Of a stretch of DNA of 60,538 nucleotides, positions 1 to 60,538 are shown one piece after another. The stretch lies in the IMG/VR virus record IMGVR_UViG_3300005095_000141, positions 1 through 60,538 of that record. One strand, given 5' to 3'. The notes beneath the pieces were generated by a model. The model saw only the letters and a list, made by a program, of their open reading frames with translations. It did not search any database and was not told where the DNA came from. The DNA is from a virus. The translations under genes and the position numbers were made by a program. How positions within the stretch are numbered: position 1 is the first letter of the stretch; every line of letters starts with the position of its first letter.

Positions 1-91
1 TAAGAACTCGTATATTATACCGTTGTATGCCCGTCTTACCGGTGCTGGTAGCATACGTGTTGCTGGCTATGCTTTTCTTGATAGGTGGAGT
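1..91. repeat. Direct terminal repeat (circular overlap), left copy
   Basis: Bases 1-91 are identical to 60448-60538. The E2-like gene stays open across the join, so the two ends are the same place on a circular or permuted molecule. A 91-base overlap is typical of a k-mer assembler closing a circle, so it need not be a biological repeat. The true genome length would be 60,447 bp. Confidence 0.97.
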
Positions 92-1078
92 AATGCGTTG
101 ATTGAGAGGTTGTTGAGGGAGTATGATGTTGTGGCGTTTGCGTATGGGTATGGTAATGGCCCGGTTGTATGTAGTGTTGCTTCGCAGGTATATGGCGGCG
201 GCACCGGTGTTCCGGCTGTGCTTGTACGGTCGCCTAGTACTGAGGCTTCGAATGTAGTGGATGCACTTACCGGTTTCCGCGGTGTATGCTATGTTGATGA
301 TGACACGTTCTTCTGCAGTGTTACCGATAGCGATGGCCGTATGCATGTGTTTGGCAGTACGAATTTCTTCGAGTACCGGTCTAGCCGTGCCGCCGGCGTT
401 ATGGTGGTGCTTAGAAGGTATTTCGGCAGTGACAGGGTTGAGGACGCCTATGTGATGGAGACCCTGCGCGACCTGTTCGGCGCTGTGCAGAACACTGTTG
501 TTGCTGAGACCCGTCTTGTAAGCTACCGTGTTAACGCTGTGTTCGACGTTGTGCCGGGGCGTGAAAAGCTGTATATGGGCAGGTACTGTACCGACTATAC
601 CGGTGATGAGTGCCTGTTTGGACTGGAGCGCCTTGTTGATTTTACAGGTAACCGTGTAGTGCTTAGATATGATAGTAGGCGTGGCATGGAGTACGTTGTG
701 TTGCCGGAGCCGTTCCGTGTTACCGGTAAGCTTGTAGTGTACGCTGTTGGCAGTTCCAGTAGATTGAGCGATGAGGGCATACCGCTTAGCCTATACGGAG
801 ACCTGTGGATAAGGTTTGACAACCAGTTGTTCAGGCACCCGAACAACAGTGACAGCGGCTCGGTGTGTCTGGGAGGCTATGAGTTGCCACGCTATACTGG
901 TAGGGGTGATACTGTGGATGAGCTTAGACGTGTGCTTGACACCGCCGTGTCTATACTGAGCATGCCGACCAGTAATGCGTTTAACAGCTCGTTTATTGAC
1001 TATGTGCGTGAATACTGTGATACGCATAGGTGCGAGGAAGGAGTGTTCAGGATGGATGAGGCGTGGGGCACCGGGTAG
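1..1078 (+). CDS. Ubiquitin-conjugating (E2-like) enzyme with unknown N-terminal domain, C-terminal part
   Basis: Continuation of the gene that starts at 60269; joined length is 418 residues. About residues 285-400 match the E2 (UBC) fold. Beta strands are followed by HPN at residues 339-341, then seven residues, then Cys349 and Leu. This HPN-x7-C-L spacing, with Gly at the fifth spacer position, is the canonical E2 active-site signature. The Cys would carry the ubiquitin-like thioester and the HPN Asn would stabilise transfer. Helices follow (around DELRRVLDTAVSILSMP) as in E2 proteins. Residues of about 36-280 form a domain I cannot place. The gene lies between two E1-like genes and a ubiquitin-like gene, which supports the role. 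The assignment rests on motif and context only. Confidence 0.72.
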   Translation, partial: KNSYIIPLYARLTGAGSIRVAGYAFLDRWSNALIERLLREYDVVAFAYGYGNGPVVCSVASQVYGGGTGVPAVLVRSPSTEASNVVDALTGFRGVCYVDDDTFFCSVTDSDGRMHVFGSTNFFEYRSSRAAGVMVVLRRYFGSDRVEDAYVMETLRDLFGAVQNTVVAETRLVSYRVNAVFDVVPGREKLYMGRYCTDYTGDECLFGLERLVDFTGNRVVLRYDSRRGMEYVVLPEPFRVTGKLVVYAVGSSSRLSDEGIPLSLYGDLWIRFDNQLFRHPNNSDSGSVCLGGYELPRYTGRGDTVDELRRVLDTAVSILSMPTSNAFNSSFIDYVREYCDTHRCEEGVFRMDEAWGTG

Positions 1079-1099: not shown

Positions 1100-1126
1100 A
1101 ATATGGAACAGTAGGAGGTGTATGGG

Positions 1127-1333
1127 TTGCCTAAAGTAGTAATAGCCGGGAACGAGTACGAGGTAACAGGTACTGGCGAGGAGATAGTTAAGTTTATACT
1201 GGAGAAGGCGGCTGAGCTTGGCTGGGCAAGTGTACGCATATTTGCCGATGGGAAGGTTGTACCCGAGGGCGATGTACAGGCGCTTGAGCAGGCTTCGACG
1301 ATTGAGGTTGTTAAGGCGGACGTAGCGGCTTAG
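1127..1333 (+). CDS. Ubiquitin-like beta-grasp protein
   Basis: A 68-residue protein with the beta-beta-alpha-beta-beta order of ubiquitin/ThiS-like beta-grasp folds. Strands lie at about residues 2-13 (PKVVIAGNEYEV), a helix at 17-31 (EEIVKFILEKAAELGW), a strand at 33-42 (VRIFADGKVV), and a last strand at 57-64 (TIEVVKADVAA tail). The start is the TTG at 1127, chosen for the strong AGGAGGTG site 6 bases upstream; GTG at 1118 would add three residues. It directly follows the E2-like gene and the E1-like pair, so it is the natural modifier of the cascade. The C-terminus is Ala-Ala, not Gly-Gly, which is odd for a conjugated modifier. It could instead be a ThiS/MoaD-like carrier. Confidence 0.62.
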   Translation: MPKVVIAGNEYEVTGTGEEIVKFILEKAAELGWASVRIFADGKVVPEGDVQALEQASTIEVVKADVAA

Positions 1334-43929: not shown

Positions 43930-44898
43930 GTGGAGAACGTGCTTGTAACAGGAGGTTCTGGACAGATAGCTTCGTATATAGTTGAGGAGTTCGTTAGGCG
44001 TGGATACAGGGTATTTGTACTTGACCCTGCACCGCCGCTTAGGGAATGGGCTGGCCTGATACATGATGATAAGATAGTGTATAAGCATGGTACAAGCTAT
44101 GATGTGCACCAGATATTCGACCTTGCAACATACCGGTTTAAGTATATTGTTGACTGCGGTGCATTGCTTGGAAGCGAGGAGCTAACGCCTAGGCTTGACA
44201 GTGCCGCCGCATACGACTTTATTGGTAGCAGGAACGTGTTCGAGCTTGCCAGATACATTGGTGCGAAAGTATTCCATATAAGCATAGAGTTTGCAGGGTA
44301 TGGCTTTACCGACGGCTATAGTGTGACGAAGATGGCGGCGCTTAGGACGGCACAGGAATACGCTAAGAAGTACGGAGTAAATATTGTTGCGGCGACCGTG
44401 CACCACATATTTAGCCCTAGGCAGAAACTGTTACCGGCTAGAAAGATTATGCCGACACTGATATCGTATGCAATGACAGGTGCTAAGTTCAGAATATTTG
44501 GAAGCCCGGACAAGATGATGGATTTACTGTATGCCGGCGACTTTGCAAAGGTTGTAGTGGAGCTTCTGGAGTCTGATAATACGAAGACGGCCGATAAGCA
44601 CGTATATGATATTGGGAGTGGAGAAGGAATACGGCTTGAAGACCTTGTGATTCGCACATACTATGAATGCGGGCATGAGCCGAACTATACTGTGACCGAA
44701 GACTTTAGATTCCAGAGGCCAGACCCGTACCGTGTAGCTAGGAATGACTGGGTTGACGATGTTGAACATGTACCGATGCTTAGGAGCATAGATAAGATGC
44801 TGAACTGGCTTGTACGACAGTATAAGAAGAAATATAGTATGGAGGACTTTGAGCTAGCAGTAGAGGTTTACGAGCAGAGGCATAGATGGGGTGTATAA
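43930..44898 (+). CDS. NAD-dependent nucleotide-sugar epimerase/dehydratase 1
   Basis: 322 residues, GTG at 43930 after GAGGTGGT (GTG 43921 also possible). Extended SDR: N-terminal NVLVTGGSGQIASYIVEEFV (GxxGxxA Rossmann), Ser in the HISIEFAGYG area and Y-x-x-x-K in GYSVTKMAAL. It may act as a 4,6-dehydratase or epimerase of the NDP-sugar. Its stop overlaps the methyltransferase gene start. Confidence 0.82.
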   Translation: MENVLVTGGSGQIASYIVEEFVRRGYRVFVLDPAPPLREWAGLIHDDKIVYKHGTSYDVHQIFDLATYRFKYIVDCGALLGSEELTPRLDSAAAYDFIGSRNVFELARYIGAKVFHISIEFAGYGFTDGYSVTKMAALRTAQEYAKKYGVNIVAATVHHIFSPRQKLLPARKIMPTLISYAMTGAKFRIFGSPDKMMDLLYAGDFAKVVVELLESDNTKTADKHVYDIGSGEGIRLEDLVIRTYYECGHEPNYTVTEDFRFQRPDPYRVARNDWVDDVEHVPMLRSIDKMLNWLVRQYKKKYSMEDFELAVEVYEQRHRWGV

Positions 44899-44899
44899 C

Positions 44900-45601
44900 G
44901 TGAAGTGGTGCCACGGAGACCCTAGATGCCCGTATTATTTTGAGCAACTGGTGAAGATAGCCAAGTACATGGTGGATACTGTTGGAAGGGATGAGGGTAA
45001 GTCAATACTGGATGTTGGTGCGGGGGATGGTTTGCTTGGTCATCTGCTACGCATATATGGGTTTAGAGGACGCATAGACGCTGTTGAGATAGATAATAAG
45101 AAAGCCTATGTGCTGAAGCAGAGCGGTATATACGGCCGTGTGTTTGAGAATGATTTTCTGGAGATGCGGTATTTGGAGTACGTTAACTACCATAACAGCT
45201 ATGATGCTGTTGCGATGATAAACTTTCTGTATGCATTTGGAGGAGTACTGGTGAACCTTGTGCTTGACACGGCTAGTTTGCTTGTGAAGAGACGTGGACA
45301 CGTGTTTTTTACGTTTACGAACAGGGAGTCGCCGATAACGAAGTTTCTGGCAGAGCGTGGTATTAAGAAGTCGCATACGCAGAGCAGAGAAGAAATAATT
45401 GATGCGTGTTTTAGGGCAGGTCTAGACCCTAGGTTTGTGCACGACCTTAGCATGTGGATAGTGCCGTTCAGTACCGGAGATAAGTGGACTGGAGAGCTAT
45501 ATACTGGTGCGAAGGCTATGCTGAAATGGATTAAGTTGGCTGTTAAGTATAGGAAGTTCGGGCCGATAGAGTATTTTGTCGACGCAGTACCGTATTACTG
45601 A
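44900..45601 (+). CDS. SAM-dependent methyltransferase
   Basis: 233 residues, GTG at 44900 (GTG 44891 overlaps the previous gene). Class I motif I SILDVGAGDGLLGHLL (about residues 37-52), motif II AVEIDNKKAYVLKQ and a later HNSYDAVAMINFLYAFGG. The N-terminus has CHGDPRCPYYFEQL, likely sugar-binding. Probably methylates the sugar or glycan made by this operon. Confidence 0.75.
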   Translation: MKWCHGDPRCPYYFEQLVKIAKYMVDTVGRDEGKSILDVGAGDGLLGHLLRIYGFRGRIDAVEIDNKKAYVLKQSGIYGRVFENDFLEMRYLEYVNYHNSYDAVAMINFLYAFGGVLVNLVLDTASLLVKRRGHVFFTFTNRESPITKFLAERGIKKSHTQSREEIIDACFRAGLDPRFVHDLSMWIVPFSTGDKWTGELYTGAKAMLKWIKLAVKYRKFGPIEYFVDAVPYY

Positions 45602-45611
45602 GGCGGTGTGC

Positions 45612-47138
45612 ATGGATGACCTTGGAAAACTGAGAGTACTTGTGACACAGTATTATTATTCAGCGAGAGACCTTACCGGGGTAAGCATGTTTAACTGGTA
45701 TAGGGCGCTGTATAAGGCGAATGAAGATAGGATGATTATGTATTTGGAGGTGCCGAGGGAATGGTGGAAGGAATGGGGAAAAGCATTTGTGGAGTATGAT
45801 ATTGATGATGATGAACTTGAAAAATACAGGAAAATGATTGGAGATAATGTAAGGTTTATACGTCTTGCCAGAGCTAGGGAGATGAAGGAGTGGGAGACAT
45901 ACATACCGACTGAGGATGAGCACAGGTTTGTAAGGAACATTCGTTCTATGCCGATTGATGTTATACTGAGCGGTACGTATGGCTATACGTGGTTGCCTGT
46001 TATTTCACAGCTTGAAAGGAAGAGTGCATATTATAGTGAGGTACGTGTACCGGTTATTCATTTTCAGCACGAGACGTGGAGAGACTATATTAGCATGCAG
46101 ATGCTTGGAACTAGGCAGTTAAAGACCATAATACTGATGAACATGGTGTTGTCTGATATGGTGTTTGTATTTAACGAGCCTGACAAGATAGCTGTGCTTG
46201 AGGAAGCTAAGAAACTTCTGTCGCATTCTGTCTATAACGATTTGAAGAAGAAGATAGAGATTGTGCACCCGATATACCCGTACTACGAGATTGACGATAA
46301 GACCGAGAGCTATATTGAGAGTAGGAAGGAACGGATTAGAAGAGAGAAGAAGGTTGTGTTTTACCATGCTGGCACGCCTGAAAAGAAGAGAAGGTTGCAC
46401 GTATTTGCCGATATATTGAAGAAACTGGTTGATGATGGTAGTGTAGATGCTAAGTTTAAGATGATAATAAGTAGTGCTGGTACGTATGAGAAAGAGCTAA
46501 AGAAGTTTTTTGGGCATGAAAGCATTGAAATGCTGTTTGCATTGCCTAGGCATAGGTTGATTGAAGAGATGCGTACTGCTGATATTGCTGTGTGTCTGAG
46601 CATTTACTACGGTACTGGTCTTGCGTGTCTAGAGGCTAGTGCTAGTGGTATGCTACCAATATACTGGAGGATACCGGATACTGTTGATAGGGTTCCGCCG
46701 AAGTACCCGTACCGTGTGGTTGATGAGAAGGAGCTGGAAGAGGTTGTTAAACAGCTTGGTGACCCGGCAGAGTTTCTTAAGGTGTATGATGAGTGGGCGC
46801 ACAAGGTTGCTAGGCATGTACAGAAGAATTTCGGTAGGGAAGAGGCTAGAAGGATATTTGACTTGATAGTGAAGCTGAGGAAACGATTTGTTGATGATTA
46901 CAGCGAGAAAAAGATACTGTTGTGGGATGCGTTTAAAGACGCAGTTGACAGCATACCGAGTGGATGGAAGGTTGACCATGAAAGGCTGATTTCGATTGTT
47001 TCTGCTATGACGAAGAAGGGCAAGAGGCCGAAAGAGATTAGGTCGCTTATTACCGAGATTGGACTGCGTATTCTTGCACATAAGTATGGACTGCGTGATA
47101 TAGGGGATATAGACAAGATTGTGTGGTGGAAGCCATGA
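45612..47138 (+). CDS. Glycosyltransferase, GT4-like (GT-B fold), 1
   Basis: 508 residues, ATG at 45612 after GAGGCGGT. The C-terminal donor-binding domain is clear: VVFYHAGTPEKKRRLHVFADIL, KFKMIISSAGTYE, then ADIAVCLSIYYGTGLACLEASASGMLPIYW (the E-x7-E region of GT-B enzymes). The N-terminal acceptor domain is divergent and longer. A C-terminal helical extension follows. Pair with 47135, which overlaps it by 4 bases. Confidence 0.75.
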   Translation: MDDLGKLRVLVTQYYYSARDLTGVSMFNWYRALYKANEDRMIMYLEVPREWWKEWGKAFVEYDIDDDELEKYRKMIGDNVRFIRLARAREMKEWETYIPTEDEHRFVRNIRSMPIDVILSGTYGYTWLPVISQLERKSAYYSEVRVPVIHFQHETWRDYISMQMLGTRQLKTIILMNMVLSDMVFVFNEPDKIAVLEEAKKLLSHSVYNDLKKKIEIVHPIYPYYEIDDKTESYIESRKERIRREKKVVFYHAGTPEKKRRLHVFADILKKLVDDGSVDAKFKMIISSAGTYEKELKKFFGHESIEMLFALPRHRLIEEMRTADIAVCLSIYYGTGLACLEASASGMLPIYWRIPDTVDRVPPKYPYRVVDEKELEEVVKQLGDPAEFLKVYDEWAHKVARHVQKNFGREEARRIFDLIVKLRKRFVDDYSEKKILLWDAFKDAVDSIPSGWKVDHERLISIVSAMTKKGKRPKEIRSLITEIGLRILAHKYGLRDIGDIDKIVWWKP

Positions 47139-48619
47139 GGATACTTGTAATACCGCATGTGGCGAGCAAGAACCTTGAAGGAGAGAGTGTGGCGCTGGTG
47201 TTTGCAGAGTATATGAAGAGCATTAAGAAATATGCTGAGAAAAACGGTGAAAAAGTATGGTTTTACGTTGTGTTGCCCAGAGGAGTTACCGGAGAGAAGA
47301 TATATGAGGATGTAGGGAACACTACGGTTGTGTTTGAGAACAGACGCCTTAAGCAGTTCTATACCGAGATTGACGCTGTGGATGTTGATACGCTTGAACT
47401 GTTCGGTGCACGTACCGGTATTTACCCTGTTGACGCAGTTATAACGAGTAAGACTGGATTTGCATTGATGATGACGAAGTACCTTAGTGATTTTAGGTAT
47501 GCGCAGGAGAGTCTTGACTACCTTAGGATACCGGTAGTGATAATTGAGGACAGGGCATTTGGAAGGAAGAACACGCATAACCTTGTAGATGGAGTGGAGT
47601 TTATGCTTAGAGCGATGAGCTATGCAACGCATTATACCGTGTTTATGGATGAGTTCGAGTTCGAGGAAGCGTATGATGCCAGCAAGCAGTACTTGTCTAA
47701 GGCGATGCTACGACGCTTTATGAAGCACGCAATAATGTACCCCGGTGTACGGTGCAGAGAGATAGACAGGATAATACATGGTGTGAAAAAACGGGAGAAG
47801 TTCACGCTGTTCTGGGGAGGAAGGATTTCTGCACAGAAGAGACCCGGCTTTGTACTGGACGTGTACAATAGGTTTTACGAGCTTGGATACGATGTCGACA
47901 TAATTGTTACTACACCGCACGAGGCAGACGTGAAAACCGATGTAATACCGAAAGCACTGAGGAGAAACAGCAAGATAAAAGTACTGTATAACGTAAGCAG
48001 AGAAGAATACCTTAAGCTACTGGCTAGTAGCCATGTGTTTCTGAGTGGTAGCTTGTACGAGGGCTTCACGATTGGTCATACCGAGGCTGGCTATACTGGT
48101 GTGCCTGTGATTGTACCGAATAGGCCGTGGAGCAGATTGATATTTGGCAGTGACTATAAGCTGATGTATGACCCTAGGAGCGAGAAGGAGGCACTGGCAG
48201 TACTGATATGGTGTTATGAGAACTATGATGAGTGCGTGGAGATTAGTAGGAAGACTAGGGAGAGGATAAGGGAATTGTTTGATGCGGAGAAGACGCATGA
48301 GATACTGTATAATGTGGTGAAGAAAGCATATACTGAGACCGTGCTTGACAATATTGACCAGCTAATAATAGGCAGAGGGATAAAAGAGGTGCTTGACACA
48401 GTGATTTCAGAGGCTAGGAGCAGAGGATACGATAAGATTTCGCTTAGGATGCTGATAATGCTGATGAAGAAGTATATGCGTGTAAGCAACAGATGGACTG
48501 ACCCCCGCCTAGGAATGCCTAGTATGTGGGCGCTGTACCAGTACATTAAGAACGTGCTTGGATACCGTGACACATGTGATTCAGAAGAGCCTGTTTTTAA
48601 TATTGAAGTAGATAATTAA
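47135..48619 (+). CDS. Glycosyltransferase, GT4-like (GT-B fold), 2
   Basis: 494 residues, ATG at 47135 overlapping the upstream stop. Motifs TLFWGGRISAQKRPGFVLDVY, NVSREEYLKLLASSHVFLSGSLYEGFTIGHTEAGYTGVPVIVP (in parts) give a GT4 signature with E-G-F-x-x-x-x-x-E. It has a helical C-terminal extension of about 100 residues similar in style to the one at 45612 (both mention an IKEVLDTVISEARSRG or KKGKRPKEIRSL-like helix). Both may glycosylate a virion protein or host glycan. Confidence 0.82.
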   Translation: MRILVIPHVASKNLEGESVALVFAEYMKSIKKYAEKNGEKVWFYVVLPRGVTGEKIYEDVGNTTVVFENRRLKQFYTEIDAVDVDTLELFGARTGIYPVDAVITSKTGFALMMTKYLSDFRYAQESLDYLRIPVVIIEDRAFGRKNTHNLVDGVEFMLRAMSYATHYTVFMDEFEFEEAYDASKQYLSKAMLRRFMKHAIMYPGVRCREIDRIIHGVKKREKFTLFWGGRISAQKRPGFVLDVYNRFYELGYDVDIIVTTPHEADVKTDVIPKALRRNSKIKVLYNVSREEYLKLLASSHVFLSGSLYEGFTIGHTEAGYTGVPVIVPNRPWSRLIFGSDYKLMYDPRSEKEALAVLIWCYENYDECVEISRKTRERIRELFDAEKTHEILYNVVKKAYTETVLDNIDQLIIGRGIKEVLDTVISEARSRGYDKISLRMLIMLMKKYMRVSNRWTDPRLGMPSMWALYQYIKNVLGYRDTCDSEEPVFNIEVDN

Positions 48620-48638
48620 ACGTGTATGGGTGGTCTGC

Positions 48639-49424
48639 ATGCAAGACATAAAACGTGAAATAAAAGAAGTTCCTGTGTCCCAGATTATACCGCTTGAAGA
48701 GAACATTAGAGAGATGAGTGACGAGGAATTTAATGCGCTGTGCAAGAGCATAGAGGAAAACGGGTATGCGGAGCCGATACAGGTTGTTGAGACGCCTGAC
48801 GGTAAATACCGTATAGTGAACGGCCAGCACAGGTATGAAGCACTTGTAAATGTGTTTGGAGTTGATACCGTAACAGTTATAGTGCTTGGCAGGATGTGTA
48901 AGGAAGGAGAGGACCCTGAGAAGGATGGTTGCTGGGACGAGTACCGTTACTGGGCGGAGGTGATAAGGCTTAACAACATACGTGGTGACTGGAAGAAGCC
49001 GGCGCTTGCAAAGAAGATATTTGAGCTGTGGGAGTACTATAAGAAGAAAGGATATGACAGGCTTGACCTGAAGGAGCGTCTAGGTTTTACCGGGGCTAAG
49101 ACGTTCTTTGACAAGTTGTTTGAGGATGTGAAGAAGTCGTTACCGAAGGATATTGCAGAGGAGCTTGAGAAGAAAAAGGACAAGATAGATACTGTGGAGG
49201 ATTTGAGCAGGATAATAAACGAGATAATGAGGAAAAGCGGGAACACCGTGAAGTACGGATACCTGATATTCAGCCTTGGAGGAAAACAGCACATACTGGT
49301 ACGTGCGTTGCCGGAGCTGTTCTCGGTGGTGCGGGATATACTGGACTACTGCAAGTATAATGGGAGGAATGCGTCTGAAGTACTGTATGAACTGCTTAGT
49401 GGATGGGAGGAGAAACTGCAATGA
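48639..49424 (+). CDS. ParB/Srx-like nuclease-domain protein
   Basis: 261 residues, ATG at 48639 after GGTGGT. The ParB N-terminal domain: EVPVSQIIPLEENIREMSDEE (in parts), SIEENGYAEPIQVVE, YRIVNGQHRYEALVN (the G-x-H-R motif). An EVIRLNNIRGDW segment follows, then a helical DNA-binding part with GFTGAKTFFDKLF. Known roles are partition, nuclease or regulator of DNA modification. It sits inside the sugar operon and overlaps the downstream epimerase gene by 4 bases, which is odd for a partition gene. Confidence 0.75.
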   Translation: MQDIKREIKEVPVSQIIPLEENIREMSDEEFNALCKSIEENGYAEPIQVVETPDGKYRIVNGQHRYEALVNVFGVDTVTVIVLGRMCKEGEDPEKDGCWDEYRYWAEVIRLNNIRGDWKKPALAKKIFELWEYYKKKGYDRLDLKERLGFTGAKTFFDKLFEDVKKSLPKDIAEELEKKKDKIDTVEDLSRIINEIMRKSGNTVKYGYLIFSLGGKQHILVRALPELFSVVRDILDYCKYNGRNASEVLYELLSGWEEKLQ

Positions 49425-50314
49425 CGCTGACCGTGCTTCTTACCGGTAGCGAGGGTGTTCTTGGGAAGAGAATAAAGGAACTGTTGCCGAAGATGATTGA
49501 TGCGAGGATAATAGGTCTTGACATAAAGGAGACTGCCGATATTGTGGGTGATATACGGAACTATGATGTACTTGTGTCCGCTATGAAAACATATAGACCG
49601 GATGTTGTACTGCATTTTGCGGCTTTGACAAGCCCGATAGAGAGTACGTACCGTGAAATAGAGTATTATGACGTGAACATGATTGGTACTGCGAAGCTTG
49701 TGAAGATAGTGCCGAGGGATGCCCTGTTTATATTTGCGAGTAGCTGTGCAGTATATGGGAATGCGTACGATGTTCTTAAGAGACCGGTGATTCTTAGCGA
49801 TGCATGGAGGTTTACGCCGCTAAGCCCGTATGGTCTGAGCAAGCTGTTTGCAGAGAAAATAATACGTAGCCATAGAGACGATGCGGTTATACTGAGGTTT
49901 GGAAACGTGTATAGCCCGTATGACGATAAGTATGTGTTCTGGAAGATGTTTAGCAACAAGGTGTTCGTTCTTAACGACCCTGATGCTGTAAGGGATTTTG
50001 TAAGTGTGGATGACCTGATACGGCTGATTGTGAAGATAATACGTAGATGGGATGCGGGCGAATACGTTGGAGGTACGTATAATGTTGGTGGTGAACCGCT
50101 TAAGATGGCTGATGTGGTAGAGATTGCTAGGAAAAAGGCTGGATGGCCGGAGAAAGTGGTTATTGGCAATGGTTTGAAGCCTGGAGAGTTTAAGCGCATG
50201 GTTCTGAACATTACAGCTACTAGGGATGCATTTGACTGGTCGCCTATTGACAGGCTGGAAAACTATATAGATGTTCTAGACCGATACTTTAGAATGAGGT
50301 CTGCGGGGAGATAA
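49421..50314 (+). CDS. NAD-dependent nucleotide-sugar epimerase/dehydratase 2
   Basis: 297 residues, ATG at 49421 overlapping the upstream stop. Extended SDR with VLLTGSEGVLGKRIKELL, VLHFAALTSPIES, FASSCAVYGNAYD and SPYGLSKLFAEKII (Y-x-x-x-K). The S-S-x-A-V-Y-G block is typical of UDP-glucose 4-epimerase-like enzymes. With the genes at 41997-48619 it completes a nucleotide-amino-sugar and glycan pathway. Confidence 0.82.
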   Translation: MTLTVLLTGSEGVLGKRIKELLPKMIDARIIGLDIKETADIVGDIRNYDVLVSAMKTYRPDVVLHFAALTSPIESTYREIEYYDVNMIGTAKLVKIVPRDALFIFASSCAVYGNAYDVLKRPVILSDAWRFTPLSPYGLSKLFAEKIIRSHRDDAVILRFGNVYSPYDDKYVFWKMFSNKVFVLNDPDAVRDFVSVDDLIRLIVKIIRRWDAGEYVGGTYNVGGEPLKMADVVEIARKKAGWPEKVVIGNGLKPGEFKRMVLNITATRDAFDWSPIDRLENYIDVLDRYFRMRSAGR

Positions 50315-53945: not shown

Positions 53946-54398
53946 TTGAAGACCCCGCTTGATGATGTTAAGGATACGGCTAAACGTGTTATTGCTGAAG
54001 GCGTCGCGTCTGGAAAGAAGTTTGAAGAGATAGCGCAGGAGCTTAGCGAGATGCTAGGTAAGAAGATAACGCCTAGTATGGTGCGGTATTTCTACTACAG
54101 AGAGTTTGGGGATGTTGTTTCTGATACGCCTAGAAGCAGTACCGATGTTGTTGACGATGAAGGAGAATTTGATTTGGAGAAGGAATTGATATGGCTGTAC
54201 CGTGTGCAGAAGAAACGTATTAGACGGCTGGTTAGACTGGAGGAAGAAGCTGGACTGCCACTGCCTGATACGAGCAAGAACATTGATATTGCAAGCAGGA
54301 TACTGGAGAAGCTTGGAAAAATAGGAAGTGCAGAGGATGAGAACATTATTGAGAAGGTGCTTGAGGCGCTGGAGTCTGATACTGGTACTGAGCAGTAG
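53946..54398 (+). CDS. Terminase small subunit (predicted)
   Basis: 150 residues, TTG at 53946. The N-terminal part is a helix-turn-helix-like segment (GKKFEEIAQELSEMLGKKITPSMVRYFYYRE). A middle acidic linker and a helical C-terminus (IDIASRILEKLGKIG) follow. Small terminases recognise viral DNA through an N-terminal HTH. Direct overlap with the large terminase supports the call. Confidence 0.65.
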   Translation: MKTPLDDVKDTAKRVIAEGVASGKKFEEIAQELSEMLGKKITPSMVRYFYYREFGDVVSDTPRSSTDVVDDEGEFDLEKELIWLYRVQKKRIRRLVRLEEEAGLPLPDTSKNIDIASRILEKLGKIGSAEDENIIEKVLEALESDTGTEQ

Positions 54399-54409
54399 TG
54401 GTGTTTGTT

Positions 54410-55831
54410 TTGAACAAGCTTGTTGAGAAGGCGCTTAGGAATTTCGACAAGTTTGTAGCGGCTTTGTTTGTAGGGCCGGACGGCAAGCCGTTGCGGCTGA
54501 CGTATTACCAGAAAGAGTTTATTATGAAGGCGCTTACGAGGAAGCCGGGCAAGTTTATTTTCTTGGCGGCGACCCGTAGCGGTAAGACGACCAGTACAGC
54601 CGTGCTTGCAATACTGTATGGATTGCTGTACCCGAGAGAAGAGATTGTTGTTGTTGCGCCCACGTTTAGACAGGCAAACATACTGTTTGGAAGGATACGA
54701 GAATTCATTATGTCCAGCCCGATACTGATGCGCATGATAGACAGGGAGAAGAGCTTTAGGCACGACCTGATACACTTTAAGAACAAGACTGTACTGAGAG
54801 CGTTGTCTGCAGGTAACCCTGAGGCGTTGCTTGGCTTCGGTGCTACTGTGCTGATTGTTGATGAGGCTGGTAGCATACCGGACAATATTTTCAGAACCCG
54901 TATATTGAGGATGATTATGAGTAACCCGCTTGGAAGGAAGCCTGTGCTGATACTGCTTGGTACGCCGCACGTACACAACTATATGTGGAGGCTGTGGGTA
55001 GAAGGTGATGAGAAAGAAGTGTTTAAGATGCGTGTTACTTGGAGGGACGCTGTTAAGGCTGGAATAATGAGGAAGGATGAGGTGGAGTTTGCCCGTAAGA
55101 TGCTTAGCGAGACAGAGTTTAGGATGTGGTATGAGGCGGAGTTCGTGAATACTGAGGGCAAGTTCTTCGATATTGATGATATTAGGAAGTGTGCTGTTGC
55201 CCGTGGAATAGTTGGTGCGAAGCCTTTGCCTAGGAGACCGGGGCATATACGGATACTGAGTGTTGATGTTGCACGGCTGGGGGATGACGAGACAGCCGCT
55301 GTTATTGTTGAGGTGCCGAAGAACTTTACGCCGGAGGAAGGCATAGTAGAAGTGCTTGGAGTGTACCGGCGCAAGAAGATGTACTTGAATGAGACAATAG
55401 GCTGGGTACTGCACTTGGCAGAGGAATGGCTGGTAGATTATGTAGCTGTTGACGCTATAGGAATGGGCGTCGGGGTCTGCGACGTGCTTAGGGAGAAGCT
55501 TGGTTTTTACCGTGTTGTTGATGTTTCGGCGGCTGGTAGGGAGCGTATTGATATGTTTATGCTGTTTAGGCGTCTTGCTAGGGAGAGGCGTATTATTTTG
55601 CCTGAGAATGAAGATATAGTTAGGCAGTTCTGGTCTTATGAGGTTCGCTATGGCGGTAATGGTGATGTGCGCATTATTAAGAAGGCCGGGTACCGTGATG
55701 ATGTTGCCGATGCTATTATTTATGGTGTTTGGGTGGGCTACAAGTACAGTAACTACGCTGGCTATACCGTGCATGTGTCTGACAAGATAGCCAATATTGT
55801 TGAGCGCATGTCTGCTAGTGGAAGCCTGTGA
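54410..55831 (+). CDS. terL: Terminase large subunit
   Basis: 473 residues from TTG 54410 (GTG 54398 gives four more). The ATPase domain has Walker A AATRSGKTTS (residues 53-62), Walker B TVLIVDEAGS (Asp151, Glu152) and LILLGTPH (motif III). The C-terminal RNase H-like nuclease has LSVDVARLGDD, AVDAIGMGVGVCDVL and YRDDVADAIIYG. The motor translocates DNA into the prohead through the portal (19749). Followed 4 bases later by the 19-bp motif and the JAMM gene. Confidence 0.93.
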   Translation: MNKLVEKALRNFDKFVAALFVGPDGKPLRLTYYQKEFIMKALTRKPGKFIFLAATRSGKTTSTAVLAILYGLLYPREEIVVVAPTFRQANILFGRIREFIMSSPILMRMIDREKSFRHDLIHFKNKTVLRALSAGNPEALLGFGATVLIVDEAGSIPDNIFRTRILRMIMSNPLGRKPVLILLGTPHVHNYMWRLWVEGDEKEVFKMRVTWRDAVKAGIMRKDEVEFARKMLSETEFRMWYEAEFVNTEGKFFDIDDIRKCAVARGIVGAKPLPRRPGHIRILSVDVARLGDDETAAVIVEVPKNFTPEEGIVEVLGVYRRKKMYLNETIGWVLHLAEEWLVDYVAVDAIGMGVGVCDVLREKLGFYRVVDVSAAGRERIDMFMLFRRLARERRIILPENEDIVRQFWSYEVRYGGNGDVRIIKKAGYRDDVADAIIYGVWVGYKYSNYAGYTVHVSDKIANIVERMSASGSL

Positions 55832-55835: not shown

Positions 55836-55854
55836 TGTGCTTTGAGAATACCGG
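55836..55854 (+). promoter_or_regulatory. 19-bp viral boundary motif, copy 13 (upstream of JAMM)
   Basis: TGTGCTTTGAGAATACCGG, 24 bases before the ATG at 55879. It starts the ubiquitin-like cassette as a separate unit from the terminase. Confidence 0.7.
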
Positions 55855-55878
55855 ATAAACTGCATTGGGCTGGTAGGT

Positions 55879-56598
55879 ATGCGTGTTAAGAAAATACGTG
55901 CTAGTTCGTCTAAATGGAGTACTGGGTATAAGCCTGTAACTGAATGCCCGTATATGAAGATTGGTAAGCTGATAGTGCTTGTTGATTTTTCGTTGTTCGA
56001 GAAGATAAGCAGGCTTGCAGACGAGATTGATACCGAGTTCCTGATGTATGCTAAGTACAAGAAGCTTGGTGAAAATGAAATATACGTTGTTGATGACGTG
56101 TTTGTACCGAAACAGAAAGCTAGTGCTACGTTTGTAGAGGTAGAGGACAAGATACCGGAGAAGTTTGCTACTGAGACTGTTGTTATACATAAGCACCCGC
56201 CGAATATAGAGTCGTTCAGCAGAACAGATTATGAGTACATTAATGCGAATAACGATGTTAGTCTGCTGTGGTGTGATGGAGAGTTTACTGATGCTACTGT
56301 AAGGCGCAAGCTACCGTGTGGTAAGACTGCTATTGCGAGTGCAGATACTGTTAAGATGTATGTTGTTCTGCCTACTGGTAAGAAGGTTGATAAGCTGATA
56401 GATGGTATTAAGAAATGGGTTGAGGAGGCGAAGAAGAAGATAAAGCAGGAATATGTGCATGTGGCGAATGGCAAGACTATTCTTGACTATAGCGATTATG
56501 GTGGGTGGAGGACTAGCCTGTACGACATACCGGATTATGATGATGAGATAGAGGAGCTGTATAATGGAGAGATTAGTAGGATGATGCGTAGAAGGTGA
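55879..56598 (+). CDS. JAMM/MPN metalloprotease (deubiquitinase-like)
   Basis: 239 residues, ATG at 55879 after GGTAGG. The zinc site is read as Glu53 in EFLMYAKY, then His104-x-His106, seven residues, Ser114, two residues, Asp117 (HKHPPNIESFSRTD). This exactly matches HxH-x7-S-x2-D of active JAMM isopeptidases. These cleave ubiquitin-like tags (Rpn11, AMSH, archaeal HvJAMM). Central strands (EIYVVDDVFVPKQ) fit the MPN fold; the C-terminal third is helical and basic. Phage tail protein K also has a JAB domain, but this gene is far from the tail block and lies in the cassette with E1-, E2- and ubiquitin-like genes. Confidence 0.85.
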   Translation: MRVKKIRASSSKWSTGYKPVTECPYMKIGKLIVLVDFSLFEKISRLADEIDTEFLMYAKYKKLGENEIYVVDDVFVPKQKASATFVEVEDKIPEKFATETVVIHKHPPNIESFSRTDYEYINANNDVSLLWCDGEFTDATVRRKLPCGKTAIASADTVKMYVVLPTGKKVDKLIDGIKKWVEEAKKKIKQEYVHVANGKTILDYSDYGGWRTSLYDIPDYDDEIEELYNGEISRMMRRR

Positions 56599-56939
56599 TG
56601 TTTGTGGATAGATGGGACTTTGTGTATTGGTTTAGGAGACCGGTTGGAAGTACTGCTGATGTTGTAGAGGCGGTTGCTAGTGACGGTGATAAATGGTATG
56701 TTGTAACTATGGGTGGAAGGATTAACGAGAGAGGGGAATACGAGATTATGGGAGAACCGATACCGATTGATGGGCCGAAGGATGACCCTGTAGATATGCT
56801 GTGTAGTCACCTAGAGTTTTACAGGGAGATTGGTATTGTTGGGAAATGGGATAAGCAGGTTGAGAAGTTCTGTAGCGATACCGGTGTAGATGATGAGATT
56901 GTGTTTATGAAGCACTTGAGGATAAGGAGGTCTAGGTGA
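56598..56939 (+). CDS. Hypothetical protein in the ubiquitin-like cassette, 113 residues
   Basis: Not recognised. ATG at 56598 overlaps the JAMM stop. N-terminal helix with aromatic and basic residues (DRWDFVYWFRRP) like the Trp-rich helices of the E1 and E2 starts. Then a beta hairpin with Gly-Gly and an acidic loop with two Cys. Coupled translation with JAMM suggests a JAMM partner or substrate adaptor (inference). Confidence 0.55.
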   Translation: MFVDRWDFVYWFRRPVGSTADVVEAVASDGDKWYVVTMGGRINERGEYEIMGEPIPIDGPKDDPVDMLCSHLEFYREIGIVGKWDKQVEKFCSDTGVDDEIVFMKHLRIRRSR

Positions 56940-56946
56940 TAGTGGA

Positions 56947-57144
56947 ATGAGTGGAAACGATAGTGCTGTTATAGAGGATTGGTGTGGAGAAAAATACGAT
57001 GTGAACGAGATACTTGTAGAAGTAGATAGCGTAGAGGATATACTGAGGAGACTGTGCAATCCATATAAGAGAATAGGTGATGTGCATGTGTGTGTAATAG
57101 AATGTAGTGCGTTTGCATTTAGAGTTAGAGGTGATAGTGCTTGA
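56947..57144 (+). CDS. Hypothetical protein, 65 residues
   Basis: Not recognised. ATG at 56947. It is acidic, with a helix containing VEVDSVEDILRRLC and a C-terminal beta segment with Cys (VHVCVIECSAFAFRV). Its stop overlaps the TTG of the next gene. Confidence 0.5.
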   Translation: MSGNDSAVIEDWCGEKYDVNEILVEVDSVEDILRRLCNPYKRIGDVHVCVIECSAFAFRVRGDSA

Positions 57145-57260
57145 TAACGGTTCCGATGGATGAATGTGTTAAGAAGTGCTTGGAGAAGAATGGCTGGACA
57201 CAGGAGAACATGATACGGTGTATGCATAAGTGTGCGGAGGAGGTGAAGTCTGCATGGTGA
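57141..57260 (+). CDS. Twin CX3C mini-protein, 39 residues
   Basis: TTG at 57141 overlaps the upstream stop (TTGA), and the stop overlaps the next ATG. Two helices each carry a C-x3-C motif: Cys9/Cys13 and Cys27/Cys31, 13 residues between. This twin CX3C helical-hairpin layout is known from small Tim chaperones and CHCH-like proteins, where two disulfides join the helices. The frame is exactly coupled on both sides, supporting expression. Function unknown. Confidence 0.55.
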   Translation: MITVPMDECVKKCLEKNGWTQENMIRCMHKCAEEVKSAW

Positions 57261-57646
57261 AATGGCGTGTTGACGATATGGATGATTTGGGAGACAAGGT
57301 CTGGGTGACCGTTATATTTGAGATAGATAAGGATGACTGGGTTGAGAGGTCTGTGTCTAGGTATAGTGAACTGCGTGATAAATGGACGAAGCTGTACCGT
57401 AAGGAGCTTGACATATATAGGAAGCTTGGTGGAAGAACTGGAGATGTTGTTGAGGTGTATAAGGACGGCACGGTTGTTATTGAGTATGGTGGTTTGCTGG
57501 GGAGGAAGCGTGTGAAGAAAGTGGTGTCTGCTGAGCTTAAACGCATTATTGATGAGAGAGCTGTGGTTGAGAAGGCTGTTAGCAATATTGTTGACAGGCT
57601 TGCTGAGAGGATTTTCGAGGAACTGTGCGGTGATAATGGTTATTAG
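57254..57646 (+). CDS. Hypothetical protein, 130 residues
   Basis: Not recognised. ATG at 57254 overlaps the previous stop. Beta-strand start (KVWVTVIFEID), a charged helix (RYSELRDKWTKLYRKELDIYRKL), a short hairpin (TGDVVEVYKDGTVVIEYGG, an SH3-like look) and a helical end. No catalytic motif. Confidence 0.55.
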   Translation: MVKWRVDDMDDLGDKVWVTVIFEIDKDDWVERSVSRYSELRDKWTKLYRKELDIYRKLGGRTGDVVEVYKDGTVVIEYGGLLGRKRVKKVVSAELKRIIDERAVVEKAVSNIVDRLAERIFEELCGDNGY

Positions 57647-57679
57647 TTGTTTGTTGTATAGTTTGTAGTGGTGGTAGGT

Positions 57680-58066
57680 ATGCCGTTTACTGGTAGGAGT
57701 GCGTTGAACCGTATTGTTGGTTTGCTTGAGGGTGTGCTTCGTGTTGCTAGTGATGTTGTAAGCGGTAGTTCTGGCAGTGTTTCTACTGGTGATGCTGAGG
57801 CTGTTGTTGCTAGTGTTGATTTGTCTGGCTGTGTGCGTGGCGTTGTGTTGGTTGCTAATACTGGTGGTAATGGTGTGGATGTTGTTGTGTCTGCTGTTGT
57901 TCCCGGCGGTAGTGTTTCGTACCAGTTGTTTAGCGGTAGTGTTGCGGCTGGTGCTGTACAGCGTGTGGATGTTGATTTTCCCTGTAAGGTCAGTGTGTTT
58001 GCTAAGAATAGTACGAGTGGTGCGGGCAGTACTGTTGTTGTTGACTGGGTTGGCTGGAAAGCCTAG
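57680..58066 (+). CDS. Hypothetical beta-rich protein, 128 residues
   Basis: Not recognised. ATG at 57680 after GGTGGT. N-terminal helix (ALNRIVGLLEGVLRVASDVV), then Ser/Gly/Val-rich strands (GVVLVANTGGNGVDVVVSAVV, in parts) and a final WVGW. It looks like a small jelly-roll or beta-sandwich. Surface or secreted role possible. Confidence 0.5.
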   Translation: MPFTGRSALNRIVGLLEGVLRVASDVVSGSSGSVSTGDAEAVVASVDLSGCVRGVVLVANTGGNGVDVVVSAVVPGGSVSYQLFSGSVAAGAVQRVDVDFPCKVSVFAKNSTSGAGSTVVVDWVGWKA

Positions 58067-58160
58067 CACTGTTTTTTAGCCTGTACTGAACAATGTGTGC
58101 CGGGCAATGTACAGGCGCCGGACACAGACCACCATATAGAATACAGGAGAGGAGAACACA
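58067..58160 (+). promoter_or_regulatory. Spacer with inverted repeat (operator or hairpin) before the 58161 gene
   Basis: GCCTGTAC (58079-58086) and GTACAGGC (58109-58116) are perfect 8-bp inverted arms with a 22-base spacer. This fits a dimeric regulator operator or a stem. A/C-rich bases (58130-58220) contrast with the G/T-rich surroundings. The next gene encodes a possible RHH protein, so autoregulation is plausible. No 19-bp motif is here. Confidence 0.5.
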
Positions 58161-58511
58161 ATGCCCAGACACATACACACAATAATAACAGAGAAACTAT
58201 ACTGGGTAATAGACAGTATTAGGGGCCGGTACGGTGTTAGTAGTGGTGCTTTGCTAGAGTTTGTTTTCTGGGCTTGCTGGGAGGATAGTGGTTGTAGGCG
58301 GCGTGTTTTGGACTGGCTTGCTGGCCGTGGTGTTCGTACTGGTAGTACTGGTGGTGCTGGCGATACTGGTTCTGGTTCGGCTGGTTCTGCTGGTGGTGTG
58401 GATAGTACCGGTAATGCTGGTGGTGGTGGTGCTTCGTCTTTTGCTGAGTGGTTGGTGCGTGGGTGGGGTGACCCGTTGAACCAGTTGTTGTTTGAGCTTG
58501 GCGGTGACTAG
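58161..58511 (+). CDS. RHH-like protein with Gly/Ser linker and C-terminal Trp helix
   Basis: 116 residues, ATG at 58161 after GGAGAGGAG. Residues of about 5-40 (HTIITEKLYWVIDSIRGRYG, then VSSGALLEFVFWACW) resemble ribbon-helix-helix proteins. Residues of about 55-90 are a Gly/Ser/Thr/Ala-rich linker (GSTGGAGDTG, GSAGSAGG). The end is a helix SFAEWLVRGWGDPLNQLLFEL finishing in Gly-Gly-Asp. The linker style is shared with the E1 and E2 starts. GG plus one residue could be read as a processed conjugation tail, but the fold is not beta-grasp. Confidence 0.5.
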   Translation: MPRHIHTIITEKLYWVIDSIRGRYGVSSGALLEFVFWACWEDSGCRRRVLDWLAGRGVRTGSTGGAGDTGSGSAGSAGGVDSTGNAGGGGASSFAEWLVRGWGDPLNQLLFELGGD

Positions 58512-58523
58512 GCTGGTTTGTGC

Positions 58524-58542
58524 TGTGCTTTGTTTTTACTGG
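58524..58542 (+). promoter_or_regulatory. 19-bp viral boundary motif, copy 14 (upstream of E1)
   Basis: TGTGCTTTGTTTTTACTGG, 28 bases before the GTG at 58571. Confidence 0.7.
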
Positions 58543-58570
58543 TATTTACTGGGTTTGTGGGTGGTGTGTT

Positions 58571-59416
58571 GTGTCTGGTCGGGATTTGCTGTGGTTTCTT
58601 AGGCGGGCGGCGGCTGGAGGGTCTGTTTCTGGCAGTACTGGTTCTGTGGCTGGTGATTCTAGGTCTGCTGGTGCAGACGATGCTGGCGTTGCTGTTAATA
58701 CTGGTACTGGTGGTTCTGGTGCTGGGTTTGTGTTTCCTGGTGTGCGTGCTGTTGTGTTTGGGTTGGGTGGTGTTGGTTCGTGGCTTGTGTTTCTTGCTGG
58801 TGGTTACCGGTTGTTTGGTGGTTTTGTATTGGTTGATGGTGATGTGTGGGAGCCGGTGAATAGTAATAGGTTGTGGTTGTACCCGTTTGGGGGGTTGTTG
58901 GGCCGGTGTGTTGCTGGTGGCCGGTGTTTTAAGGCTGGTTTGGCTGGTGGGTGGCTTGTGCGGCGTGCTGGCTATACTGGTGGCCGGGTAAGGGTTGTTC
59001 CCCGGTATGTGCGTGGGGTGGATGATGTGCGTGCTGTTTTGTCCCGTTACTGTACCGGTACCGGCGGTGACGGTGCTGGTTATCGTTACCCGTGTGTTGT
59101 GTTTGACTGTGTTGATTCGCCGCGTGTGTCTGCTGATGTTCGGTATGCTGGTGTTGGTGCTGGGTTGCCTGTTGTTAGTCTTCATTTTGACGGTGGTAGT
59201 GTTACTGGTGAGGTGTTTTTGCCGGGGTCTGGGGCTGGTGTTTTTAGTGTTGGTGGTGCTCGTGGTGGGTATGTGGCTGGTAGTGTTGCGGGGTCTAGTG
59301 TGTTGGCGGCTTGGCTTGGCGTGGTGCTTGCTTACCGTGTTCTTACTGGGGCTGTTGGTGGCTATGTGTTGGTTGGTGGTGATACTGGGTCTGGGCTTCG
59401 TGTTTTTGGCTTGTAG
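58571..59416 (+). CDS. E1/ThiF-family ubiquitin-like activating enzyme
   Basis: 281 residues, GTG at 58571 after GGGTGGTG. A short Trp helix (RDLLWFLRR) and a Gly/Ser/Ala linker (to about residue 52) precede the Rossmann core. The core has GLGGVG (64-69), VDGDVWEP (Asp89, Asp91), NSNRLW (Arg100, the family R finger), GRCFKAG (Lys121), and VVFDCVDSP (Asp179, Asp182). These are E1/MoeB/ThiF adenylation features: ATP-Mg binding and activation of a C-terminal carboxylate. There is no Cys after residue 180, so no obvious thioester site in the usual position. The last third continues with strand LPVVSLHFDGG as in E1 proteins. Codons are extremely G/T-rich. Confidence 0.78.
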   Translation: MSGRDLLWFLRRAAAGGSVSGSTGSVAGDSRSAGADDAGVAVNTGTGGSGAGFVFPGVRAVVFGLGGVGSWLVFLAGGYRLFGGFVLVDGDVWEPVNSNRLWLYPFGGLLGRCVAGGRCFKAGLAGGWLVRRAGYTGGRVRVVPRYVRGVDDVRAVLSRYCTGTGGDGAGYRYPCVVFDCVDSPRVSADVRYAGVGAGLPVVSLHFDGGSVTGEVFLPGSGAGVFSVGGARGGYVAGSVAGSSVLAAWLGVVLAYRVLTGAVGGYVLVGGDTGSGLRVFGL

Positions 59417-59417
59417 T

Positions 59418-59436
59418 TGTGCTTTGTTTTTACCGG
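59418..59436 (+). promoter_or_regulatory. 19-bp viral boundary motif, copy 15 (upstream of the second E1-like gene)
   Basis: TGTGCTTTGTTTTTACCGG, immediately after the E1 stop and 61 bases before the chosen ATG at 59498. A (TCTGTAnTG)-like T/G repeat lies between. Confidence 0.68.
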
Positions 59437-59497
59437 TATCTGTACTGTATCTGTAACTGTACTGTATTGTATCTGTATTGGTATGGTATGTATTGGT

Positions 59498-60262
59498 ATG
59501 TGTTTGGGGGTGTTGGTTGGGTTGTTTGTGCGGAGTGTGGATGTTGGTGGTGTTAGGCGGGCTGGTTCTGGGCGTGTTCCTGGTCGTTACCGGGTTGGTG
59601 ATTGGGGTGTTGAGTGGTTGTTTGTTCTTGATGGTGCTGGTGGGTTCGGTGTTGTTGCCGGGTTTTTGCTTGGTTTGGGGGGTTCTGGTGTTGTTGTTGT
59701 TGGTAGTGGTGGTGTGCCGGGTGTTGTTGCGCCTTGTTATGGTGTGCCGGGGGGTGCTGGGCTTGGTGGTTGGCCGTCTTGTTTTGCTGGTTTGGGCGGT
59801 GTTGTTTCTTACCGGGTTGTTGCTGAGTGGTTGTCTTCCGGTGTTGTGTTTCAGGGTGTTGGGGATGTGTTTGTTGTTGATGTTGGGCTTGGGTTGCCGG
59901 TTTCTTCTTGGCTTTACCGGGGCGGTGTGGGGCTTGTCTTTACCGGTGTTGATGGGGGTGTGTATGTGTTTGTTGCTAGGAGGCTGTATCTTTCTGATTT
60001 GCGCAGGATAGGCCGTGTGTCTGGCGGTGGTGATGGATGGTTTGTGCGTGGGGAGGAGTGCGGTGCGCTGTGCTCTGGTTTAAACGTACCCGGTGCCCTT
60101 ACCGGTGATGAGGGCTTGTTCGGGGGGTATGGCTTGGCTGGATGGGTTAGCAATGTGTTGCTGGAGGGTATTGTTACTGTGCTGAGGCGTACTAGTGATA
60201 GGGCGGTGATGTACCGGCTTGACACTGGTTCTGGCGGTGTTGAGAGACGTGTTTGGAGGTGA
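59498..60262 (+). CDS. Second, degenerate E1/ThiF-like protein
   Basis: 254 residues; start uncertain (ATG 59483 or 59498, or GTG 59528). A Rossmann-like core starts with WLFVLDGAGGFG (GxGGxG, 46-51). The next strand VVVVGSGGVPG lacks the acidic Asp, and no SNR motif follows (VAPCYGVP instead). VFVVDVGLGLPVSS (about 124-137) and GVGLVFTGVDGGVYVF match the later E1 strands. Cys188 and Cys192 lie in an EECGALCSG segment, before a Gly-rich helix LAGWVSNVLLEGIV like the end of E1 domains. It could be the inactive half of a heterodimeric E1, supplying a Cys or docking site. Paralogy with 58571 is inferred from strand order. Confidence 0.5.
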   Translation: MCLGVLVGLFVRSVDVGGVRRAGSGRVPGRYRVGDWGVEWLFVLDGAGGFGVVAGFLLGLGGSGVVVVGSGGVPGVVAPCYGVPGGAGLGGWPSCFAGLGGVVSYRVVAEWLSSGVVFQGVGDVFVVDVGLGLPVSSWLYRGGVGLVFTGVDGGVYVFVARRLYLSDLRRIGRVSGGGDGWFVRGEECGALCSGLNVPGALTGDEGLFGGYGLAGWVSNVLLEGIVTVLRRTSDRAVMYRLDTGSGGVERRVWR

Positions 60263-60268
60263 CCGTGT

Positions 60269-60538
60269 ATGAGCTGGAGTGTTGAGAGCTGGTATGCATG
60301 GTTTTCCCGCCGGGATACCGGTGCTGGGCGTGGTACTGGTGGTGATGCGGGGTCTGGGCCTGTTAGGACGCTGAGCTTTAGGCGTGCTGGTGCGGACGTT
60401 GTGTTTGACCTGTACGGTGATGTTAACGACAGGTTTGTGCGTGCTGTTAAGAACTCGTATATTATACCGTTGTATGCCCGTCTTACCGGTGCTGGTAGCA
60501 TACGTGTTGCTGGCTATGCTTTTCTTGATAGGTGGAGT
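60269..60538 (+). CDS. E2-like conjugating enzyme, N-terminal 90 residues (continues at the start of the window)
   Basis: This is the 5' part of a 418-residue protein cut by the contig ends. The ATG at 60269 lies 6 bases after the stop of the second E1-like gene and follows a GGAGGTGA ribosome-binding site. The first residues form a Trp-rich helix (SWYAWFSRR). A Gly/Thr/Ser-rich linker follows (about residues 15-35), then the beginning of a folded domain I do not recognise. A similar helix-plus-linker start is seen in the E1 at 58571. The E2 fold itself is in the C-terminal half (see 1..1078). The frame is unambiguous because the 91-base overlap preserves it. Confidence 0.85.
   Translation, partial: MSWSVESWYAWFSRRDTGAGRGTGGDAGSGPVRTLSFRRAGADVVFDLYGDVNDRFVRAVKNSYIIPLYARLTGAGSIRVAGYAFLDRWS
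60448..60538. repeat. Direct terminal repeat (circular overlap), right copy
   Basis: Identical to bases 1-91 and in the same reading frame of the gene that starts at 60269. One of the two copies should be removed to obtain the circular genome. Confidence 0.97.

Follow-up and report, generated by a model that had tools for sequence, protein, structure and literature searches.

The PRTRC gene sets, which are linked to plasmids or viruses, combine ThiF, E2-like, ubiquitin-like and JAB genes, as does the stretch of viral DNA considered here (IMG/VR virus record IMGVR_UViG_3300005095_000141, positions 1 to 60,538; the whole of this 60,538-nucleotide stretch is referred to below as the window). The locus is predicted to encode a small ubiquitin-like modifier (Ubl), a compact E1-like enzyme, an E2-like protein and a JAMM-type metalloprotease, and we consider it probable that together these form a self-contained viral pathway of ubiquitin-like conjugation and deconjugation, with the virus's own assembly or virion proteins as the most likely targets. 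PRTRC was the first candidate for the identity of this cassette and was rejected, as the NCBIfam PRTRC models match no protein of the window; the E1 of one related locus reached only 3e-4 against PRTRC_ThiF, a model with a cut-off of 145 bits.

In the Bil operon, BilABCD provide Ubl, E2, JAMM and E1 functions; two Ubl domains make up BilA, for which processing occurs at a glycine, BilB contains a CEHH motif, and BilD joins an inactive and an active adenylation domain to a Cys domain (PMC11354881). The same four functions are represented in the window, but by a single Ubl of 71 amino acids ending in Ala-Ala, an E2 of the HPN-C type and a compact single-domain E1. Membership of the Bil family was rejected on these grounds, since the tandem Ubl, the CEHH-type E2 and the two-domain E1 with its Cys domain are all lacking. 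The ubiquitin operon of Caldiarchaeum subterraneum is closer in being archaeal, with E1-, E2-, JAMM- and ubiquitin-like genes together; it differs in being cellular and in including a small RING E3 (PMC5654768), whereas no RING protein was recognised near the window cassette. An earlier note, made from the DNA alone, had related the locus to the Bil and Caldiarchaeum operons, and the likeness of the gene sets holds; by the features tested, however, the window is not a Bil operon and appears not to be one of the Caldiarchaeum type.

A survey of cellular operons with E1, E2 and JAB genes (types 6a-6e) also covered a TAPI/JAB pair from phage tails, and described no virus with a full E1/E2 set (Iyer et al., 2006; PMC1779556). 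Type 6d resembles the window in combining small Ubl, E2-like, E1 and JAB proteins, but its E2 has no His before the Cys and it includes a JAB-N domain and an extra helical protein; the phage TAPI/TAPK genes share with the window a viral Ubl and JAB, without E1 or E2 (PMC1779556). The chemistry is known, but we have seen no description of a complete, virus-borne cassette with these features; the open-access literature searched contained no account of a complete viral set, subscription papers and preprints lying outside that scope. Known prokaryotic operons with E1, E2 and JAMM genes are cellular and several act against phages, and complete sets with a shared core, carried by tailed viruses of archaea and of bacteria, would mean that protein tagging is a viral tool.

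Type II CBASS was also rejected, as it needs a fused E2-E1 protein (Cap2) and a CD-NTase, whereas E1 and E2 of the window are separate genes; and PADLOC recognised no defence-system protein among the window E1, E2, JAMM and Ubl. Bacterial E1/E2/JAB operons do act against phages (PMC10097602), and the viral E1 family is related to the E1-E2 proteins of CBASS, which would fit a counter-defence role in which the viral set blocks, competes with or reverses the CBASS Cap2/Cap3 or Bil/Bub defences. We regard this as improbable, given that a decoy or a deconjugase would need a Ubl or a JAMM protein only, a need exceeded by a full cascade with its own modifier, and that defence-gene profiles match none of the four window proteins.

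The four components of the cassette

Single-sequence searches of the window proteins (Pfam, NCBIfam, PHROGs and phmmer against the Protein Data Bank, PDB) returned noise except for a weak match of E1 to Pfam ThiF (3.2e-4), with no phmmer match in PDB for E2 or JAMM. As the cassette is almost invisible to such searches, a search for relatives was undertaken, and profiles from which the window sequences had been left out were run on all 577 six-frame open reading frames (ORFs) of the window. In this leave-window-out test the JAMM, E1 and Ubl profiles each found one ORF among the 577, with the caveat that these iterated profiles were originally recruited with the window among the seeds. The first E2 profile found no match among the 577 ORFs; the E2 core profile used below was built from 13 HPN-type relatives and never included the window. 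The genes are as follows.

55879..56598, plus strand: JAMM/JAB metalloprotease, 239 amino acids (leave-window-out profile, 1.4e-30)
58520..59416, plus strand: E1-like adenylating enzyme, compact ThiF type, start at 58520 or 58571 (leave-window-out profile, 1.5e-8)
60269..60538, plus strand: E2-like protein, first 90 codons, continuing across the origin (open frame on the circular sequence)
1..1078, plus strand: E2-like protein, remainder (leave-window-out E2 core profile, 1.1e-4; next ORF, 0.41)
1118..1333, plus strand: ubiquitin-like modifier, 71 amino acids, predicted beta-grasp, C-terminal ADVAA at 1316-1330 (leave-window-out profile, 7e-7)

The motifs of the first three proteins, together with the small fourth one, lie where the earlier note had placed them, and no stop codon interrupts the E2 frame at the origin. 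The JAMM protein has both the upstream catalytic Glu and the zinc-site motif of JAMM/MPN+ metalloproteases, HxH-x7-S-x2-D, which here reads HKHPPNIESFSRTD. Its catalytic residues are Glu53 (codon 56035-56037), H104 (56188), H106 (56194), S114 (56218) and D117 (56227); the Glu, HxH, S and D are invariant across 20 homologues including the window, and the family profile matches AMSH/STAMBP and AMSH-like proteases in PDB at 5e-5.

The window E1 contains the GxGGxG loop, DxD, NxNR and DxxD motifs of the E1/ThiF superfamily, as GLGGVGSW (58760-58783), DGD (58835-58843), NSNR and DCVD (59105-59116). In an alignment of the window with 23 viral homologues, all 24 sequences have the GxGGxGSW, DxD, N, R and D residues, and the family profile matches TcdA, ThiF, UBA5, MccB and MoeB in PDB at 1e-25 to 1e-19, with TcdA, ThiF and UBA5 at 1e-25 to 1e-21. 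No conserved catalytic Cys, as would be expected of a thioester-forming E1, was found across the 24 aligned sequences; the frequent Cys columns are the structural DCxD (17/24) and the GCGG position (13/24), where the window has Leu. By sequence, the viral E1 is an adenylating enzyme of the ThiF/MoeB kind.

An E1 of the compact ThiF/MoeB/TcdA type that lacks a conserved catalytic Cys would also suit a sulfur carrier, that is, ThiF/ThiS-like small-molecule biosynthesis in which the Ubl is thiocarboxylated and not conjugated. This is very improbable in our view: the E1 is accompanied by a JAMM protein and by an E2-like protein with the active-site motif of ubiquitin-conjugating (UBC) enzymes, the Ubl tail is A-A or A-G instead of GG, and partial inspection of the neighbouring genes recognised no rhodanese, sulfur-metabolism or cofactor gene.

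On the circular sequence the E2 ORF runs uninterrupted from 60269 to 1078 and encodes 418 amino acids, of which about 290 form an N-terminal region without assigned function that precedes a UBC-like core. The active-site motif HPN-x7-C-L (HPNNSDSGSVCLGG) has its HPN at 836-844 and its Cys349 codon at 866-868, so that HPN is followed by the active-site Cys within the UBC profile, as in UBC enzymes; the Cys is invariant in 23 aligned homologues. The E2 family profile (window included) matches UBC enzymes throughout the listed PDB matches, the best at 2.3e-4, with HPN aligned on HPN and Cys on Cys.

A beta-grasp fold had been proposed for the small protein and is borne out by its AlphaFold2 model (predicted local distance difference test score, pLDDT, 87), in which the order of elements, E-E-H-E-E-H-E, is that of the beta-grasp topology. 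Foldseek matched the model to SUMO first, then to ISG15, ubiquitin and ThiS in PDB (probability 1.00, best E 2.7e-3), and the Ubl family profile gave no convincing match to PDB sequences. Ubl tails across the family are AA, AG, RG, PG or AK, and in several homologues one to three or more residues extend beyond the A/G tail, which is consistent with maturation by the JAMM protein.

Related gene sets in viruses and cells

Scans of the viral collection with the window's own E1, E2, JAMM and terminase large subunit gave no match, and relatives were found via the DNA pattern HPN-x4-G-x-V-C-[L/W]-G. Matches to this pattern were viral contigs on which a compact E1 and a JAMM protein lie beside an E2-like protein of about 360-700 amino acids; five others (L107, L110, L112, L113 and L114) were dropped as unrelated Cys-rich or repeat-like sequence, and L109 as a chance match of 24 codons. 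A search with the E1 alignment retrieved 80 viral loci. With iterated profiles, complete sets of Ubl, E2, E1 and JAMM were found on 12 other distinct viral contigs and partial sets on more (Ubl, E1 and JAMM on 13; E2, E1 and JAMM on 3; E1 and JAMM only on 44). In most of the Ubl, E1 and JAMM loci, a long protein is encoded in the gap before E1; at the E2 position it has a candidate active-site Cys, which often follows a His and not HPN. The usual gene order is Ubl-E2-E1-JAMM, with Ubl-E1-E2-JAMM at some loci. The earlier note was aware of no complete viral set; that stands for the literature searched but not for sequence collections, where the set, or the greater part of it, is present on about 25 further viral contigs.

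A 137-kb viral contig (L116:660-8736) has three tandem E2-like proteins (660-2132, 2178-3149 and 3189-4148) with Cys-rich C-terminal regions; it also encodes an E1, a candidate Ubl and a protein of 1333 amino acids in which a JAMM motif occurs. In one cassette-bearing virus the terminase is apparently split by an intein with an endonuclease-like region (L111:1026-3327).

Among cultured phage collections, only related JAMM-E1 pairs were found, in Flavobacterium phages and some crAss-like phages, where they are annotated as thiamine biosynthesis or as hypothetical. As in the window, these E1 and JAMM proteins are phage-borne and they are homologous to those of the window; there, however, the two genes are adjacent, no E2 or Ubl of the family was detected in the flanks searched, and the E1 proteins form a distinct clade. 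The adjacent pair occurs in a large phage group (L149-L200, and L281, which is Flavobacterium phage FpV4) that includes isolates and crAss-like phages. Small proteins with KEGG-type tails near some of these pairs (L157, L192 and L196) may be their modifiers.

The species-genome scan used the E1 alignment. Of its 80 kept matches, only four (L201-L204) also match E2, JAMM or Ubl profiles, and the others were set aside, being mostly TcdA-type ThiF proteins by appearance. One of the four is from an Acidilobaceae archaeon (L203, JALVZQ010000005), in which the set lies on a 387-kb contig and a sister genome has the same neighbours. This operon consists of three genes, encoding a Ubl-E1 fusion, an E2 of 195 amino acids with the HPN..C motif (AHPNVDKTGSLCPGT) and a JAMM protein; it differs from the window in the fusion of Ubl to E1, in an E2 without the long N-terminal region and in its location on a cellular chromosome. 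The archaeal Ubl part ends in PADVAA and continues with STW, whereas the window Ubl ends in KADVAA and stops, so that the fusion joint at ADVAA is the exact C-terminus of the window modifier. Pairwise BLAST aligned the Acidilobaceae and window proteins for E1 (3e-8) and E2 (6e-4) but gave no alignment of the Ubl parts; the two JAMM proteins are 38% identical over 143 amino acids.

Searches for the archaeal JAMM protein in 398 Thermoproteota and 214 same-order genomes gave clear matches in only two Acidilobaceae metagenome-assembled genomes, with borderline or frame-broken matches in three further genomes of the Thermoproteota search; the set therefore appears rare in cells. Two further contigs of metagenome-assembled genomes, labelled Sulfurovum and Ignavibacteria, also carry the set, among neighbours that are phage-like in appearance. 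JAMM and E1 trees place the window with poor resolution, its E1 on a very long branch, so no claim is made on the origin of the window cassette.

That sets of the same kind occur in dozens of other phage genomes and in one archaeon points to protein tagging as a viral tool that has so far gone unrecognised. The balance appears even to us for a broader proposal, namely that a dedicated cassette (a Ubl with an A-A or A-G tail, a long HPN-type E2, a cysteine-less compact E1 and a JAMM protein) is common to tailed viruses infecting archaea and bacteria, is passed from virus to virus and at times into the chromosomes of cells (the Acidilobaceae being an example) and, during infection, attaches its modifier to virion or host proteins. 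If this were true, complete ubiquitin-like systems would have a natural home in viruses, and cellular ones might have come from there.

Genome context and proposed pathway

The record is classed as a virus contig and carries a 91-bp direct terminal repeat (60448-60538 is a copy of 1-91), on which basis it was read as a circle of 60,447 bp; all 85 genes of our in-house gene call are on the plus strand. The earlier note had placed the cascade in a head-tailed archaeal virus, and this is supported by the capsid protein and head genes together with the leave-window-out profiles. Matches of the major capsid protein are limited to haloarchaeal tailed viruses of the Druskaviridae type and one Methanofastidiosa virus (29-33% identity), and the window encodes a terminase, portal, head protease and tape measure as well as a family-B DNA polymerase (PolB) and a processivity factor; taken together, these genes identify an archaeal tailed virus. 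In gene order, the JAMM gene is followed by five small ORFs, E1, a Gly/Val-rich protein, E2 and the Ubl, and the genes around and between the four components are as follows.

54398..55831, plus strand: terminase large subunit, directly upstream of the JAMM gene; context, outside the cascade (PHROG terminase large subunit, 2.4e-39)
56595-56939, 56947-57144, 57230-57646, 57668-58066 and 58161-58511, plus strand: five small ORFs between JAMM and E1, of uncertain membership in the system
59417..60262, plus strand: Gly/Val-rich protein of 281 amino acids with GAGGFG, between E1 and E2 with short gaps

Family matches of the five small ORFs (span 56595..58511) are at noise level only. From the homology, the intact catalytic residues and the conserved gene set we infer the following steps and target. 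The compact E1 would adenylate the C-terminal Ala of the 71-amino-acid modifier, and Cys349 of the UBC-like E2 would receive it. As no catalytic Cys is conserved in the E1 family, this transfer would probably proceed directly from the adenylate. E2 would then link the modifier to target lysines with no recognisable E3, its long N-terminal region perhaps picking the target, and the JAMM protein would trim precursors in relatives and reverse the linkage. The targets would most likely be the virus's own assembly or virion proteins, and next host proteins, possibly for proteasomal removal; proteins of virion assembly are favoured since the cassette abuts the terminase gene. Compact sets of one modifier, E1, E2 and JAMM protein could serve as models for a cysteine-less E1 that feeds an E2, and they bear on why a modifier ends in Ala-Ala, on what viruses gain by tagging and on the spread of ubiquitin systems between lineages.

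Among relatives, terminase or head-protease genes are in the same stretch as the cassette at L122, L124, L130 and L132, and in the pooled neighbours of 17 loci the terminase, portal, major head and head-protease families dominate the most frequent matches. Several phages do not have the cassette beside head genes, which would fit a takeover of the host, with the modifier placed on host transcription, translation or defence factors and inactivating them or sending them to the archaeal proteasome. Archaeal Ubls (SAMPs and Urm1) are able to target proteins for the proteasome (PMC4895103, PMC4569737). The chromosomal relative in the Acidilobaceae archaeon likewise indicates that the chemistry is at home in archaea. 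Such a takeover is nevertheless unlikely, if well worth considering: many relatives are bacteriophages, whose hosts mostly have no proteasome, and in the window the cassette follows directly after the terminase gene.

Several observations weigh against a working pathway directed at virion assembly. The window Ubl ends in AA and not in Gly-Gly; its E1 is extremely divergent, with a branch of 8 changes per column and skewed composition; and the AlphaFold2 model of E2 (pLDDT 47) is too poor for a Foldseek reading, so that the UBC assignment is based on profiles of the sequence surrounding the active site. Compared with relatives, the genes stand in a different order, with the JAMM gene about 2 kb away from E1. 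Proximity to head genes was not seen at L123, L127, L128 or L131 or in jumbo phages, and chance alone should produce it fairly often in tailed-phage stretches of 16 kb. The capsid protein search found 80 relatives of the window virus; E1 and JAMM queries had no match in 34 records, the profiles gave none either, and JAMM is absent from 33 capsid-found records, HCTV-1 and vir519, many of these being fragments.

The extremely long E1 branch, the A-poor, Gly/Val-rich composition and the lack of relatives of the second Rossmann-like protein could also point to decay or repurposing, with E1 and this second protein degenerate and a pathway that has ceased to work in the window virus. We consider this quite improbable, as E1, E2 and JAMM retain all their signature residues and have open frames, and the Ubl still ends in a tail of the family type.

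The second Rossmann-type protein (59417-60262) had been taken for a further E1-like protein in the earlier note. Its GAGGFG is present, but no detectable similarity was found to the E1 family profile or to the small E1 paralogues of jumbo phages, and the claim was not upheld; the ORF is longer than 99.9% of simple shuffles (0.1% reach its length), which makes a chance origin unlikely even for so A-poor a stretch. That it is an inactive second E1-like subunit is possible but unproven. The jumbo-phage loci L118, L129, L133 and L144 (about 13-16 kb in the locus) encode a separate, smaller E1-like paralogue of 175-190 amino acids, which lies a few kb from the cassette and has a conserved DCRD without NxNR; these offer a precedent, as a suggestion only, for a second E1-like subunit in the window. 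The composition of the plus strand over E1 and this next gene (58500-60450) is extreme, with 7-9% A, 38% T and 40% G, giving proteins rich in Gly, Val, Leu and Phe.

Elsewhere in the window, a zinc-finger protein (4733-5161) is matched in a relative, G007, in which the cassette was not found, and 9818-10612 encodes a possible trypsin-like protease with a GAGH-type motif and no PHROG match. A LAGLIDADG-like homing endonuclease ORF (28534-29253) adjoins the major capsid gene. Genes resembling those for nucleotidyltransferase, aminotransferase, epimerase, methyltransferase and glycosyltransferase lie at 41988-50314 with a ParB-like nuclease, and this cluster suggests modification of virion or host glycans.

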